Shown piece after piece: positions 1,158-46,502 of a DNA stretch of 64,000 nt. Position 1 is the stretch's first letter. Each line of letters opens with the position of its first letter. Under the pieces are notes generated by a model. That model saw only the letters and a list, made by a program, of their open reading frames with translations. It was not told the DNA's origin and did no database searches. Where the stretch lies: the NCBI GenBank assembly GCA_028685875.1, contig JAQUDD010000001.1, positions 158,209-222,208 of the forward strand. The letters run 5' to 3'. The stretch is from Candidatus Absconditabacteria bacterium. Its GTDB lineage: Bacteria; Patescibacteriota; Gracilibacteria; Absconditabacterales; Absconditicoccaceae. The translations under genes were made by a program, and so were the position numbers.

Positions 1158-1489
1158 TCTTTTGGGTGTAGCATAATAAAGTCTTATCTTCCGATGTTTT
1201 TTCATCTAAATGATGAGATACAGATTTTTCTTTCTTTATCAAGTTCATTTCTTTTTTTCTTCTCCCTTGTGTTTGTGGTATTTTGGTAGAGCTATTTTAC
1301 CATGAAGTACCCTTTTTCATAAGAAATCCCCTTAGTGACCAAGAGAAAAAAATCTTTGAAAAAGACTTGAAATGAGATGGCGATTATTTATCATGATCCC
1401 TGCAACGTTGGAGAAATGACAGCGTGAGCGAGTGGATGGTATTTAACAATAGTATAATATATTACATAATTTTCGAAAGAAAATAAATC
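1158..1489. promoter_or_regulatory. Divergent region upstream of protease and rRNA; weak rRNA promoter candidate
   Basis: No gene is visible here. A possible sigma70-type promoter for the rRNA operon on the plus strand is TTGAAA (1367-1372), a 16-base spacer and TATCAT (1389-1394). The match is moderate. The stretch also holds the start of the 23S processing stem (from 1446). Confidence 0.3.
1446..1487 (+). other. 23S rRNA processing stem, 5' arm
   Basis: This arm is the near-perfect reverse complement of 4405-4445; the core ATAGTATAATATATTACAT is repeated inverted on the other side of 23S. Such stems bracketing rRNA are normally cut by RNase III. It shows that 23S is released as its own precursor, separate from 5S and 16S. 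Confidence 0.85.
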
Positions 1490-4404
<2,915 letters not shown>

Positions 4405-4410
<6 letters not shown>

Positions 4411-4445
4411 TTCTTTTGAAAATATGTAATATATTATACTATTGT
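4405..4445 (+). other. 23S rRNA processing stem, 3' arm
   Basis: This is the inverted partner of 1446-1487. It directly follows the mature 3' end of 23S and precedes 5S, so 23S is probably excised before 5S is processed. Confidence 0.85.
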
Positions 4446-4530
4446 GAATATCGGAGTTCTTGTCGATTGACTTGTATTTTATAGGGAGAACCTTATATTC
4501 TACTTCAGTCTTTTGGTGTCTTTGGTACAT

Positions 4531-4658
4531 ACAAACGGTGGTACTGATGCGGATAGTGGAAACACCTGTTCCCATTCCGAATACAGCAGTTAAGCATTAT
4601 CCGGTCAATGATACTGGTCCTAGTAGGGCTGGGAAAGTAGATTAGTGCTACCATTTGT
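4531..4658 (+). rRNA. rrf: 5S ribosomal RNA
   Basis: Recognised by the loop and helix blocks CCCATTCCGAATACAGCAGTTAAGC and the 3' GGGAAAGTAGATTAG region, with ACAAACGG/CCATTTGT closing the terminal helix. It lies about 120 bases after 23S and about 70 bases before 16S, on the same strand. The ends are approximate because the terminal helix seems to extend to about 4529 and 4660. Position between 23S and 16S is unusual. Confidence 0.9.
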
Positions 4659-4692
4659 ATGGGCGAGAGTCTATGCAAGAAGTGATCTTTAA

Positions 4693-4707
4693 TAGTACAA
4701 GAAAGAA
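4693..4707 (+). other. 16S rRNA processing stem, 5' arm
   Basis: TAGTACAAGAAAGAA here is perfectly complementary (15 bp) to 6295-6309 downstream of 16S. It is a likely RNase III processing stem that frames 16S alone. Confidence 0.8.
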
Positions 4708-4730
4708 TTAGAGCTAAAGATGTATACTTT

Positions 4731-6225
<1,495 letters not shown>

Positions 6226-40988: not shown

Positions 40989-41030
40989 AAAAAAAGATAA
41001 CCATAGAAATTGTTTTGGTTATCTTTTTTG
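40989..41030. terminator. Bidirectional terminator
   Basis: AAAAAGATAACC/GGTTATCTTTTT stem between tRNA-Arg and the end of the minus-strand electron-transfer operon. Confidence 0.8.
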
Positions 41031-41033
41031 ATT

Positions 41034-42644
41034 TTATTTCTTCTTCATTTCCTCTTCTTTTCTCTTCTTTTTACGGTGTCGATTTTTGATTTGAGCGATA
41101 GTCCACAAGATAATTACCACAGCCATTACTGGATATATCTTAAGTGGGAAGTAGAGTGCTGCAACAATTCCTCCTGTGATGAAATAGATGTAGCTGCATC
41201 TTTGGATTCTTTTCCGCCAAATTCCTAGTTTCTTTTGTGAGAAGGTATTAGAAGTCAGAAAGAGGATCAGTGCGGTAATTTCGCTAAGTCTTGGGATGAT
41301 TCCTTTGAGGCTGGTTCGATTATTAGGGTGTAGATATGTAGAGAAGCTATTATTGAGTATTCGTCCACCGATGAGGTTGGTTAAAATGATTCCTGCTGAA
41401 AGGATCCCAAAGGCTTTTCTGAGGCTTATAAGTTTTCTAAACAATCAGATTTTTGGAAAGAGATCAGCTAGCGGTCTAATTGCCATTACAAATACTACAC
41501 TCCACCGGGAGAGATCGAAGAGAAATCCCATAAAATTTTGCATAAAAAGGAAATTCCCATAGAGGTTATTGGTGAGTGCATTGTAGAGCCAAGTCATAGG
41601 TACTGCCCAGAGGGCTATCCATAAGACGATGGTTTCGATGTGTTTTATGCTGGGGATATCTCCTTTAATGACTACTTTTTCCCATCGAGATGCTTTTTTC
41701 TGGGTTATTCCCTTTTCTTCTCCTGTTGTATTTTTTATGGAAGCATTACTAAATTTTTCTGAGAAAATTAGACTTTGGGGATGTTTTTGCTTTTGTAATG
41801 CCTGTTGTACGGATTCTACCATCTCTGGATTACCGCAGATATAAACCTCTTGTGAGGCTTGTATTTGTGAAAGATATTCTGTTACTCTTCCTTTATGCCC
41901 TTGATATCCTTCTTTTGGTCTGGAGATAGTGATTATTACCTCTGTATTTGGGAATGTCTTCAATCTTTCTGCGTAATATATATCTTGTTCGTATCTGACC
42001 CCAAAAATTACCGTCTTTTTTATTTCTGCTGCAGTGTTCTTGAGCATAGCAATTATAGGAGCAAGTCCTGTTCCTGTGGCAATAAAAACTTTTTCAGATT
42101 TATTGTTTTGTAGTGTGAAATCTCCTAGTGCTCAAAGGTAGGAAATCTGATCTCCGGTATTGAGTGATTTGAGATATTGAGGTCCTCTAGAATTTTGAGG
42201 TATTTTAATCGTTAGTATGAAGTGAGTATCATTTCCGTCCATGATGGAGTAGTTGCGCGAAAATTCTCCTTGTTCATCATGACATTTGACAGCAATATAT
42301 TGCCCAGGAAGAAAGGAAAACTCTGAAGTGCTGAATTTTAGCTCTAAGGTATCGGGTGTAAGAAAAGTTTTTTCTACGAGTGTAGCTTGTTTAACTCCCA
42401 TTGGTTTTGTATCTTCTGTTGGCAGAGATTCCCCATCTGTTTTTGTATCTGTTCCTTCTCCTTTTTCTACTTTAATGACTTGTACGGGGCACATGGTTTC
42501 TGCTAGTAGGATTTCTTCTTCTATGCCCGCAAAATCATCTGTAATCACTTGTGAGGTGGGATTTACTCTGAATACTTTGGGACAGATGACTTCACAATTC
42601 TTGCAACTAATACATCCGGGGAGGATACTAACGCTTTTGATCAT
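41034..42644 (-). CDS. Ferredoxin-FNR-ferric-reductase-like fusion lacking haem histidines
   Basis: A 536-residue redox fusion read through two TGA codons. The N-terminus is a [4Fe-4S] ferredoxin (CISCKNCEVICP plus CPVQVIKV). A linker leads to a ferredoxin-NADP reductase module: RNYSIMDG for FAD and VFIATGTGLAPI for NAD(P), then VYICGNPEMV. The C-terminal membrane domain aligns with MsrQ/YedZ-type ferric reductases (LSRWSVVFVMAIRPLADLF, LRKAFGILSAGIILTNL). However, the positions of the haem-ligand histidines appear to hold other residues (LTN, IQRC, AALYF). The start at 42644 overlaps apbE by 17 bases, so translation is probably coupled. The likely role is electron flow from NAD(P)H or ferredoxin across the membrane to the flavin lipoprotein encoded at 43491. 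Confidence 0.85.
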
Positions 42645-43488
42645 GGGTATGGAGTATTCAGATAAAATTCTTGGTCTGGTAGATTTTTCCTTTCTGGTCA
42701 ATAATGAGCGCTTGGAGGCTAGGAGTTTCTTTGAGTAGTTCTAGAGATTCTTCTATAGGCATCACAAAGAGTGCAGTTGAGAAGACATCGGCAAAGGTTG
42801 CAAGGGGATGAGTTACAAAGATACTGAGTTTATCATTCTGAGAGCGTTTTGTTTTTGGATTGATGAGGTGATGTCAGTTTTTTAATTTTCTTTTTTGTCC
42901 ACTTGAAGAGGCAATAGCATGATTGGTAAGCTGGATATTCCCTATACTTTTCTGGGGATTTAGAGGATCCTCTAGGAGAAGAGTATGGCTTCCTTTGACT
43001 TTAATATCTCCTCCGAAATTGATGATAAAGTTTTCGAAGAGAGGATCGAGTTTCTTGTATATTTTATCTACCATATATCCTTTTCCTATTGCTCATAGTT
43101 CAATATTGCTATTATTTTCTAATATCACTTTATTTTCTGTGAGCTTGATATTTTGATATCCTCGTTGTTCTGGCATAGGGGTCTTGTGTATTCCATAGCC
43201 TGCATTTTCTAATAGAGGGCTGATGGTAATATCAAAGTATCCTTTACTACGTTTGGATACTGTCTTTGCTAGTTCTAGGAGAGTTCTGAGTTCTTCATCT
43301 AAAGGCGCAGATTTTTGAGTATTAAGTTCGTCTAAAAAGTTTCCAGGAATAAATCTGGAATATTTCTCTTCAAACTCTTTGGCAATAGAAAAGCATTCTT
43401 CAGCAACGCTTTTACTTTCTTGTTCTTCTCTTTCTTCGGATAGAGAGAGCGATAGTGTGGATCCAAAGAGTTCTTTTGTATAGATCAT
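42628..43488 (-). CDS. apbE: FAD:protein FMN transferase (ApbE)
   Basis: Transfers FMN from FAD to a Thr/Ser of extracytoplasmic flavoproteins; 286 residues. Family motifs: SRFIPGNFLDELN, GYFDITISPLL, IGKGYMVDKI, INFGGDIKVKG, HHLINPKT and the Asp of TFADVFSTALFV that binds Mg. Three TGA codons are read as Gly; two flank conserved motifs (Gly-AIGKGY and Gly-HHLINP). No obvious signal peptide is seen, unlike many ApbE proteins. It sits two bases after the FMN-binding lipoprotein gene and overlaps the next gene. Confidence 0.94.
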
Positions 43489-43490
43489 AC

Positions 43491-43901
43491 TTATTCTTTC
43501 AGAGCATCTCTAAATGCCTGAGTAGCGAGCGATGCTCCTGCTACTACAATATTTTGGGCTTCTTGAAGAGGTTTCCCAATGAGCGTTTGTATTCCATTAT
43601 TTAGATCTCTGATTTGGGGTGTGCTTCCTTCAACGCTGATGCTACTGATGTTTCCTAGTTCATCTATGGTGTAGCTTATTGTCATAGCTGTTTCTCCAGC
43701 TGGGCTGTTGTAGTTAGCATTTAGAGTAATGATTTCATTCTGCTTTTCTTCATCATTTTCTCCTGTTGCAATATTATCTGTTTCGGTAGAGATCTCTGTA
43801 ATGAGATCAGTTTCTTCTTCAGTCATTATGTCTGTATTTGTTCCACATGCAGCGAGAAGTACTGGAAGAAATGCTAAGACATATACGGGTTTGATTTTCA
43901 T
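43491..43901 (-). CDS. FMN-binding-domain lipoprotein (likely ApbE substrate)
   Basis: A 136-residue lipoprotein. Start chosen at ATG 43901 (MKIKPVYVLAFLPVLLAACG, lipobox LAAC); a frame from 43973 adds 24 unlikely residues. An acidic linker rich in Thr and Glu follows, then an FMN_bind domain ending IVVAGASLATQAFRDAL. That GAS-x-x-T is the usual flavinylation signature, with Ser instead of Thr at the likely attachment residue. First gene of the flavin electron-transfer operon. Confidence 0.88.
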   Translation of the reverse strand: MKIKPVYVLAFLPVLLAACGTNTDIMTEEETDLITEISTETDNIATGENDEEKQNEIITLNANYNSPAGETAMTISYTIDELGNISSISVEGSTPQIRDLNNGIQTLIGKPLQEAQNIVVAGASLATQAFRDALKE

Positions 43902-43973: not shown

Positions 43974-44008
43974 ATAAAAATCTACCCGTTTTAAAAGGTA
44001 GATGCTTT
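43974..44008 (-). terminator. Terminator after the VirD4-like gene
   Basis: TCTACC/GGTAGA stem with a T run on the minus strand, between the end of the 44025-46502 gene and the start of the flavin operon. Confidence 0.7.
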
Positions 44009-44024
44009 CTTTATTGGCTATTTT

Positions 44025-46502
44025 TTACACTCCGACTCTAAAGTAAATCTCTTTGTCTACAATCTCTCTTTTACTTCATCGTTTGAGAGCAGAAATTTGT
44101 TTGATAATTTGTACTTTTTCTGGGCTATTTTTTGGAGGAATTCCATAGGGGACTTTCGCCTTAAAGCTAAAAGGTCTCGTCTGTTGATTGTTGATAGAGA
44201 TTTTACAAGCACCCATAAATGCTTCTGTACTTGTGAGGTCAGTTTGATTGAACTCAGGTTCAAATTCTTTTGCAAGAAATTCTGCATCTGGTGCTCCTAC
44301 TTTATAGACGAACATCGATCCAATATTTCCAAAGATGGTTTTAGACATATCCATATTTCCTCCTAGTCCTTCAGATTTCAGCTGATCAATATATTGATGA
44401 GCTACCACGAGTCCGAGTCTATATTTTCTGGCCTCTGAGAGGATTGACTCAAAGGAAGCTGAAACATAATTCTGGAATTCATCGACATAGAGATAGTAGG
44501 GGACTCTATTTTCTTCAGCAATTTTTGCTCTTTTGAGTGCGGAGAGTTTTACTTGCATTGCGATAATCTTTCCGATGAGCTTTGAAGTTTCTTCTCCCGA
44601 GATACCTTTTGAGAGGTTCATGAGGATGATTTTCTTCTCCTGCATTGCATCATACATATTGAAAGAAGATTTTGCTTGTCCAATAATATTTCTTACGTAG
44701 ACTCCTGTTGTAAACGGACCAAATTTTGCCTGAATGAATGGGATAATTTCAGCTTTTTCTCTGTCTCCCATTTTTTTGTAGGTTTTGTTCCACCAGGAAG
44801 CAACTACGGGATTTTTGAGGTTTCTAATCTTTGCCTCGGCAAATGCTTCATCAGTAAAGAGTCTCATAATGTCCACAATCGTTCCTCCTTCTGGTTGATC
44901 CATTAGGAGAAAACATGCGTTTCTAAAATAATCCTGAATTCTTGGTCCAAAAATCTCTGGTCCATACATTTGTACAAACATTTCTACGAGATCATTGGTT
45001 ACAACATCTTGTTCATCTGCATTGTCTGGGTCTACTTCCAAGGGATTTAGGCCGATAGGGTATTGGGTATTTCCAAGGTCAAAATAAATCAGATCATCAA
45101 TTCTCTCTTTAGGATAATGCTTTAATAAGAATTCACATGCATCTCCATGCGGATCAATAAAACAAAATCCTCTTCCATTTTCCATATCGTCAATTGCCTG
45201 AGTAAGCATAATGGTAGATTTTCCGGTACCGGTCTGCCCTAGAATATAGATATGTCTAAATCTATCTTTATCGGTGATTCTAATTTCTCTTCTACTACCT
45301 CAGAAATCATTATATCCTACGACAATTCCTTCTTGAGGAAGATCATCTGGTGCTGCAATGATCTTATATTTTTGCCAAGCAATTCTCGGGTTTTGATTAA
45401 ATCTTCCATGTGGGAAATGCACGAGGGAAGAGAGTTCCTTGATATTGAGAATGTCTTCTTTTTCTTTGATGAGTACTTTTTTGAGAAAGTTCCCTTGTTT
45501 GGTAAAAAGCCTTTGAACAAAATTCTTTGCAAAGGTTTGAAGGTTCTCGGCTTTGGTAAATTTCAAGGTATTGAGTCCAAGGTAGTTATATTGATTGAAT
45601 AACCTGCTGAGGTCTTCAATAATTTTTTTTGGTCTTTCTTTTTCCGGTGAAGTTGCAAAGGCTTTGATTTCCACCCAAAAGAGTTCATCATCCATTTTTT
45701 TATCAAAATCTCCAAGCTGTTGACTTGAAAAATTATGTTTATTTTCCTTCTCTTTTTCTTTGTCAACTTCCCCTTCTTTCTTTGCTGATTCAAAAAATTT
45801 CTGGATTCGATAGATACATCCTTTTGTTCCTTTTTTGATATCTTCAGCTTTTTTTCTCATTTTTTTTAGCCAATCTTCACTGAGCGGCTCTACCATAATT
45901 TGTAGGCAAGCTTTTTCCTCTTTATTTAGATTTGCAAAGGCTGAGAGAATACTATCCATTGGATCAGCCTCAAAGCTTTCGTATGTTTTGATTGGATGAA
46001 CACTATCTTTGGTGAGCGAGAATTCTCCACCTGCCATATATTTACCACCTTCCAAGAGTTTTGGTTCGCTAATGATTTCTACGAGTGCTCCTGAATAGAA
46101 CGAAGAAATCATTTGTTGCATAGTTAAGAGATGTGCTTCAGGGATTCCGAGGATAAACTTAATAATTTCTCTTTCTACCAAAATTTCCATACTGATATAA
46201 TTATTTCCTAGTTGTTTGTTTCCAAAATTCCTTTCATAGATTGCGTAAAAATTTTTGTACACTTGGTTCATTAGTGCGATATTGTCTTTCATATTTCCTA
46301 TATGATCTTTTGCATCGATATCGCTACTTCTGGCTACTGCATTTTTAGGAACTCTTACTTGTAAAAATCTGAGTTTATTTGATTGTTTGAATCTGTGTTT
46401 TTGTGTTTGTTGTACGATAAAAATTCTCCAAATGAGCCATCCGATTCCCATAAGTCCTGCTGCTGCACCGATACTGATGAGTGCGATTATTCCGTTATTC
46501 AT
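44025..46502 (-). CDS. VirD4/TraG-like membrane ATPase
   Basis: An 825-residue AAA+ coupling-protein-like ATPase. The N-terminus has a membrane helix (IIALISIGAAAGLMGIGWLIW). A region of about 350 residues of the kind often seen in CPR VirD4-like proteins follows. From about residue 420 comes the ATPase: Walker A ILGQTGTGKST, FIDPHGD, Walker B YYLYVDEFQNY, then a motif with ARKYRLGLVVAHQY. Two TGA codons, one just before the ATPase (YNDF-Gly-GSRR), are read through. It probably pumps protein or DNA at the membrane; with the pilin-like protein at 6384 it suggests a reduced type IV secretion-like machine. Confidence 0.88.

Follow-up and report, generated by a model that had tools for sequence, protein, structure and literature searches.

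Organization of the locus

The operon occupies positions 41034-43901 on the minus strand of the window, by which we mean the whole 64,000-nt stretch of Candidatus Absconditabacteria DNA that was analysed, and it consists of three genes (Table 1). They are transcribed in the order lipoprotein, ApbE, fusion protein; the lipoprotein and ApbE genes are separated by 2 bases, and those of ApbE and the fusion overlap by 17 bases. The genetic code of the window is NCBI code 25, in which TGA is read as glycine. Translation with table 11 breaks off at internal TGA codons in two of the genes, with three in frame in ApbE and two in the fusion; read with code 25, both are open. With this code the coordinates agree exactly with the preliminary description, which had reported three adjacent or overlapping genes with the same 2-base and 17-base spacings.

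Downstream, the perfect inverted repeat separates the operon from a tRNA-Arg gene on the plus strand. Upstream lies an ATPase-like gene (44025-46502, minus strand), and the weaker hairpin is located between it and the operon; such hairpins are about as numerous here as in shuffled sequence, and promoter-like sites are equally numerous in both. Elsewhere in the window, the rRNA genes (1482-6225, plus strand) are ordered LSU-5S-SSU, with the usual SSU-LSU-5S order reversed.

Table 1. Genes, domains and flanking elements of the operon (window positions).
Feature	Positions	Strand	Basis
Gene 1, small lipoprotein P0001, 136 aa	43491-43901	-	translation
Ser124 codon, presumed FMN-attachment residue, motif V-A-G-A-S	43530-43532	-	invariance and motif position
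Gene 2, ApbE (FAD:protein FMN transferase), P0002, 286 aa, without signal peptide	42628-43488	-	PF02424
Gene 3, fusion P0003, 536 aa, ATG start: [4Fe-4S] ferredoxin, FAD/NAD(P)H reductase, six-helix membrane domain	41034-42644	-	Pfam, fold
Gene 3, ferredoxin part, residues 1-61	42462-42644	-	Fer4_13, invariant Cys
Gene 3, FNR part, residues 84-300	41745-42395	-	Pfam, motifs, fold
Gene 3, membrane domain, residues 325-536	41037-41672	-	ferric-reductase-domain homologue via relatives
Perfect 14-bp inverted repeat with T-runs, downstream of the operon	40990-41029	.	probable bidirectional terminator
Weaker terminator-like hairpin, upstream of the operon	43980-44003	-	suggestive only

Lipoprotein with a putative FMN-acceptor serine

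P0001 is built of a signal with the lipobox LAAC-G (Cys19), about 30 disordered acidic residues and an 80-residue C-terminal domain related to FMN_bind; the protein ends with ...VAGASLATQAFRDALKE. By alignment, the signal and the lipobox are present in all aligned lipoproteins. Cys19, G122 and S124 are invariant in P0001 and its 24 aligned relatives (Ser124 is kept in 25 of 25), and LspA is encoded in the window's genome.

P0001 itself scores below the curated Pfam cut-off for PF04205 (13.3 bits, E = 0.14, versus a cut-off of 22). FMN_bind is matched in 9 of the 25 family members, the orthologues L088 (29 bits, best E 1.7e-6) and L226 (23.8 bits) pass the cut-off, and for L226 the alignment to the FMN_bind profile has a probability of 98.7%. 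When lipoprotein profiles were compared directly with E. coli RsxG, the signal was too weak to be used. Residues 56-136 are predicted to fold with high confidence. The predicted fold matches the FMN-bind crystal domain 8p2a (Z 7.4, 2.1 Å over 76 residues) and NqrC (Z 7.1) and also resembles 8p2b and RnfG, with IscU and lipoate-ligase domains equal in score. We set the IscU or lipoate-ligase identity aside, since the orthologues match FMN_bind, the gene is linked to apbE and the lipobox cysteine is the only cysteine of the protein. Hence, the label “FMN-binding” given in the preliminary description is carried by the orthologue matches, the fold and the neighbourhood, and not by the Pfam score of this copy.

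Ser124 occupies the position of the last S/T in the flavinylation motif D-x-x-[ST]-G-A-[ST] (PMC12052999). The full motif is absent in P0001, where there is no Asp and the first S/T is Ala, and the alanine preceding the acceptor changes to G or S in relatives. In published tests, replacement of the Asp had only minor effects and Ser was a weaker acceptor than Thr (PMC12052999), which makes flavinylation of the lipoprotein plausible. We suggest that P0001 is plausibly a diverged FMN_bind protein with an acceptor-type serine, and predict its flavinylation.

ApbE with an intact catalytic site and no export signal

P0002 matches PF02424 with 1.8e-43 (149.4 bits versus a cut-off of 25.6), and the solved structure closest to the family profile is that of Listeria FmnB (7esa, 7.9e-31). 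S195, H207 and D234 are invariant in the alignment of 21 ApbE sequences and line up with the part of E. coli Ftp that holds its catalytic triad; the Ser-His-Asp triad of ApbE is named in PMC12052999. At the level of sequence, the identity of P0002 as ApbE with an intact triad is certain. The position of E. coli Ftp Tyr60, whose replacement by Asn or Ala turns the FAD-binding transferase into a hydrolase (PMC4767422), is taken by Phe46, which is invariant in the family and is aromatic, neither Tyr nor a hydrolase-type residue. Among the active-site residues whose loss the preliminary description had named as evidence against it, those of ApbE are in place; in the FMN_bind domain the acceptor serine is kept within an otherwise degenerate motif.

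The lipobox of the lipoproteins was judged by alignment, and the ApbE sequences were examined for an export signal by their N-termini and the hydrophobicity of these. There is no recognisable signal peptide in any of the 21 N-termini, and P0002 starts directly in the ApbE fold. Hydrophobicity above 1.6 is found in two of the 21, both times inside the fold, compared with 2.84 in E. coli Ftp. The lack of an export signal in ApbE, when its presumed substrate is secreted, conflicts with what is seen in extracytosolic systems that have been characterised; a cytosolic version is reported to have failed to replace periplasmic ApbE (PMC12052999).

Fusion protein and loss of the heme ligands

The soluble parts of P0003 are orthodox. 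Pfam identifies Fer4_13 (2.7e-7), FAD_binding_6 (4.6e-9) and NAD_binding_1 (5.4e-16). The ferredoxin cysteines 11, 14, 17 and 52 are invariant in 19 aligned sequences, leaving the [4Fe-4S] signature intact, and the FNR motifs RNYS, GTGLAP and CGNP are present and invariant in the fusion alignment. The AlphaFold model of the fusion has pLDDT 83.8; with the full fusion as a query, the matches are taken up by FNR structures, among them BenC, T4moF and NqrF at Z 25-28, and concern the FNR part.

The membrane domain of P0003 has no Pfam match of its own, and its hhalign comparison with E. coli MsrQ is weak (28% probability). Its homology to ferric-reductase (MsrQ-like) domains is established by alignment through two relatives: L092, a fusion with the same layout and 33% full-length identity, matches PF01794 at 1e-8, and L093, in which the membrane domain comes first, matches it at 1.2e-7. 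In the membrane-domain alignment, the residues of the ferric-reductase scaffold hardly vary. The Arg(TM3)/Gln(TM5) signature described for YedZ-type proteins (PMC3591440) is apparently retained as R409 and Q481.

In the alignment, the three heme-related histidines of E. coli MsrQ, H91, H151 and H164, correspond to N423, Q481 and V494 of P0003. YedZ/STEAP-type proteins are known to have Gln at the middle one of these positions, but the surface-proximal histidine pair is described as conserved in the superfamily (PMC3591440). The 14 heme-type homologues that were examined from the class all keep this essential outer pair (MsrQ H91 and H164), and L092 and L093 keep it too; it is lost in P0003, in every aligned full-length relative other than L092, and also in L094 and in four stand-alone copies. 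Seven of the membrane domains contain no histidine at all. The loss of the outer heme site is therefore an old and fixed property of the P0003 branch, and P0003, lacking the ligands, falls outside the MsrQ-like cytochromes. A covalent-FMN motif was looked for in the membrane domain by eye, and none was found.

Distribution and origin of the operon

The full-length heme-free fusion is found in 20 genomes of the class, the window's included. Synteny in the class, which the preliminary description had proposed to compare, is confirmed: among the fetched loci, nine from other genomes (L074, L076, L077, L079, L080, L081, L083, L087 and L088) have the lipoprotein-ApbE-fusion order with similarly tight spacing. 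All nine belong to family f14, and the window to family f1. Together with the Pfam matches, this recurrence shows that the arrangement did not arise by chance. The lipoprotein gene directly precedes apbE in more than 20 loci. In f14 the operon often follows putative rplJ-rplL genes (clusters N1 and N0, named by eye; L076, L077, L079, L087, L100 and L110), a neighbourhood that differs from that in the window.

Each of the 20 genomes that carry the full-length heme-free fusion has an ApbE, compared with 109 of 353 in the class, a comparison of related genomes that does not amount to a test of independence. In G318, where the histidines are kept, there is no ApbE at the same threshold. A stand-alone membrane domain, with neither ferredoxin nor FNR, adjoins ApbE in G057, G109, G110 and G294, and in G632, from the same phylum but outside the class, ApbE, the membrane domain and FNR are three tight genes. 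This suggests that the membrane domain itself goes together with ApbE and is not only an anchor. Lipoprotein-ApbE pairs without an adjacent fusion occur in G121, G122, G138 and G139, and fusions without a recognised lipoprotein in G102, G143, G145 and G037.

None of the three genes is found in the seven other genomes of the genus, and the operon is therefore dispensable. In the tree the window fusion is placed among f14 sequences with a support of 0.96. Composition does not support a recent foreign origin, since GC and GC3 of the operon match those of the window. An old transfer or repeated loss remain as explanations of its presence in this genome.

Genome inventory

The window's genome is estimated to be 99% complete. 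The preliminary description had proposed an inventory of quinones, cytochromes and terminal acceptors; we used single-family searches, each positive in named control genomes, which unrelated replacements could escape. With these searches there is no match to UbiA (quinone prenyltransferase), COX1 (heme-copper oxidase) or FAD synthetase (PF06574), no other PF01794 protein and no PF04205 protein above E = 1. The result fits a cell without a respiratory chain and names no acceptor. Since FAD is required by ApbE as well as by the FNR domain and the genome has no FAD synthetase match, it is presumably scavenged. FAD synthetase is above the cut-off in 1 of 59 related genomes. The only genus mate with an intact match (G005, C3:13054-13494, 3.7e-45) is a genome of 67% completeness and 4% contamination, and the gene may be foreign sequence.

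Comparison with known systems

The best explanation of the data is that the operon works like the MsrQ-like flavinylation modules, in which apbE and a secreted FMN-binding protein are found with a membrane protein of the ferric-reductase type, to which a NAD-binding reductase is fused or linked (Meheust et al. 2021, PMC8238504; PMC11334425). It departs from them in the loss of the heme ligands and in an ApbE without an export signal. Further differences are that the soluble domains here are N-terminal and include an additional [4Fe-4S] ferredoxin, and that the motif reads A-G-A-S instead of D-x-x-[ST]-G-A-[ST]. The preliminary reading of a flavinylation and electron-transfer operon holds, with the intact ApbE site, the [4Fe-4S] and FNR signatures, the lipobox and the synteny in the class. 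The statement that the set matches known modules is true of ApbE, the electron-transfer parts and the lipobox, and fails for the heme ligands, the ApbE export signal and the motif Asp. Extracytosolic flavinylation is recognised by a signal or lipidation site on ApbE or on the FMN-binding protein (PMC8238504), and the lipobox is such a site; in these systems ApbE itself is usually, not obligatorily, exported, and here it is not.

The Fe-S and FAD/NADH reductase parts make the operon similar to NqrF/NqrC of Na+-NQR and to NQR/RNF-like complexes, where such a reductase, on which our FNR part superposes, feeds a covalent-FMN domain outside. However, no NqrB/D/E or RnfA/D/E partners adjoin the operon, the membrane part is of the ferric-reductase type, and the cluster is [4Fe-4S] instead of [2Fe-2S]. 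Flavin-based extracellular electron transfer of Listeria resembles it in having a surface lipoprotein, presumed here to be flavinylated, and in FmnB, the solved structure to which the ApbE profile is closest, but here ApbE is not secreted and, UbiA being absent, no quinone route is indicated. Another Absconditabacteria protein, Vamp_33_45 of Vampirococcus, combines a flavocytochrome-like membrane domain with a non-heme iron domain and a ferredoxin-reductase domain and is proposed to move electrons across the membrane (PMC8080830). Unlike P0003, it starts with the membrane part, which has eight helices, and has a rubredoxin-like centre; flavin or FMN is unmentioned in that paper.

Proposed mechanism

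We propose that the operon encodes a compact MsrQ-like flavinylation module that works without heme. Electrons from NAD(P)H or ferredoxin would reach an FMN-lipoprotein on the cell surface, to which FMN would have been attached prior to export; we see the case for this reading as evenly balanced.

Step 1: ApbE, located in the cytosol, would transfer FMN from scavenged FAD to Ser124 of the lipoprotein precursor. The FMN-bearing lipoprotein would then leave the cytosol and be held by its lipid anchor at the outer side of the membrane.

Step 2: At the inner face the fusion protein would oxidise NAD(P)H or reduced ferredoxin via its FAD and [4Fe-4S] centres. The membrane domain would carry the electrons outward without heme, most likely using a flavin in the old heme cavity or the tethered FMN of the lipoprotein dipping into it.

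Step 3: The reduced FMN-lipoprotein would give the electrons to an outside acceptor. The disposal of electrons outside the cell or onto a host, which the preliminary description suggested, may be the role of this last step.

The sequence itself shows the parts and their order, the intact sites of ApbE, ferredoxin and FNR, the lost heme ligands, the lipobox and the lack of an ApbE export signal; cytosolic flavinylation, transmembrane electron flow, the direction of this flow and the acceptor are inferred. The scheme is weakest at two points: how electrons cross the membrane, and on which side of it FMN is attached. Also counting against it are the lipoprotein motif, with no Asp and with Ser in place of Thr, the Pfam score of this copy, the loci that hold only part of the set, and the absence of the operon from the rest of the genus. 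That the ferric-reductase domain serves as a heme-free conduit, with flavins and one Fe-S cluster only, and that the lipoprotein is flavinylated inside and exported with its FMN, is a joint claim that we make tentatively and consider doubtful.

The electron path is where the strongest objection arises. The fusion might be a membrane-attached ferredoxin:NAD(P)+ oxidoreductase which balances NAD(P)H and ferredoxin at the inner face, with a non-conducting membrane domain and with the lipoprotein-ApbE pair as a separate activity on the shared transcript. The lost heme ligands and the loci that hold the fusion or the pair alone agree with such a role, and a membrane-bound FNR reoxidising ferredoxin was proposed for a Gracilibacterium of an oil community (PMC6851277). 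However, the domain also stands alone beside ApbE, in one case outside the class, which makes a mere anchor less likely; the constant presence of ApbE with the fusion and the preserved scaffold of the domain speak against it as well, and we hold it to be unlikely, though deserving serious attention. Far less probable is a conventional MsrQ-like module, in which heme is bound via unrecognised residues or a partner and works as in Actinobacteria. The clear ferric-reductase homology and the apparent YedZ-type signature would suit it, but it is weakened by the missing histidines, both the surface-proximal pair and, in seven family members, every histidine of the domain, and the genome offers no second PF01794 protein.

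In a third alternative, ApbE could act chiefly as a cytosolic FAD pyrophosphatase, comparable with the periplasmic Treponema Ftp, and obtain FMN from scavenged FAD, leaving the lipoprotein unflavinylated. The absence of a PF06574 match, the missing signal peptide and the degenerate lipoprotein motif are compatible with this; nevertheless, Phe46 in place of the hydrolase-type Asn or Ala (PMC4767422) and the tight pairing with a lipoprotein gene whose acceptor-position serine is invariant weaken it, and we find it improbable. The heme-free flavinylation module is the preferred reading.

If a heme-free conduit does exist, a ferric-reductase scaffold could move electrons with flavin alone. It would provide a concrete route for surface reoxidation of NAD(P)H or ferredoxin in symbionts without a detected heme-copper oxidase or quinone prenyltransferase; the bacterium that carries the operon is tiny and probably parasitic. 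The system also makes the export of a covalently flavinylated protein testable. A survey that left out proteins without an export signal reported extracytosolic flavinylation to be strikingly rare in the candidate phyla radiation (PMC8238504); here ApbE, signal-less in all loci read, is present in 109 of 353 genomes of the class. Beyond this 2021 survey, we found no literature joining ApbE or flavinylation with these phyla.

Other ApbE neighbourhoods in the class

Several genomes of the class carry two ApbE, one with the lipoprotein and the second beside a heme-type ferric-reductase/FNR pair. In G037, which uses code 11, ApbE and two unrelated secreted or membrane-anchored proteins flank the heme-free fusion (L091, 4697-8386), which suggests a different ApbE substrate there. 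In relatives from the window's family f1, small secreted-looking Gln/Ala-rich proteins lie beside heme-type ferric-reductase/ApbE genes (L223, 2220-2615; L224, 9227-9703 and 9798-10112; L225, 1595-2068). They end in (N/H)T(R/V)(S/T)RAS or TRAS, and these ends may mark ApbE substrates or be sorting tags.
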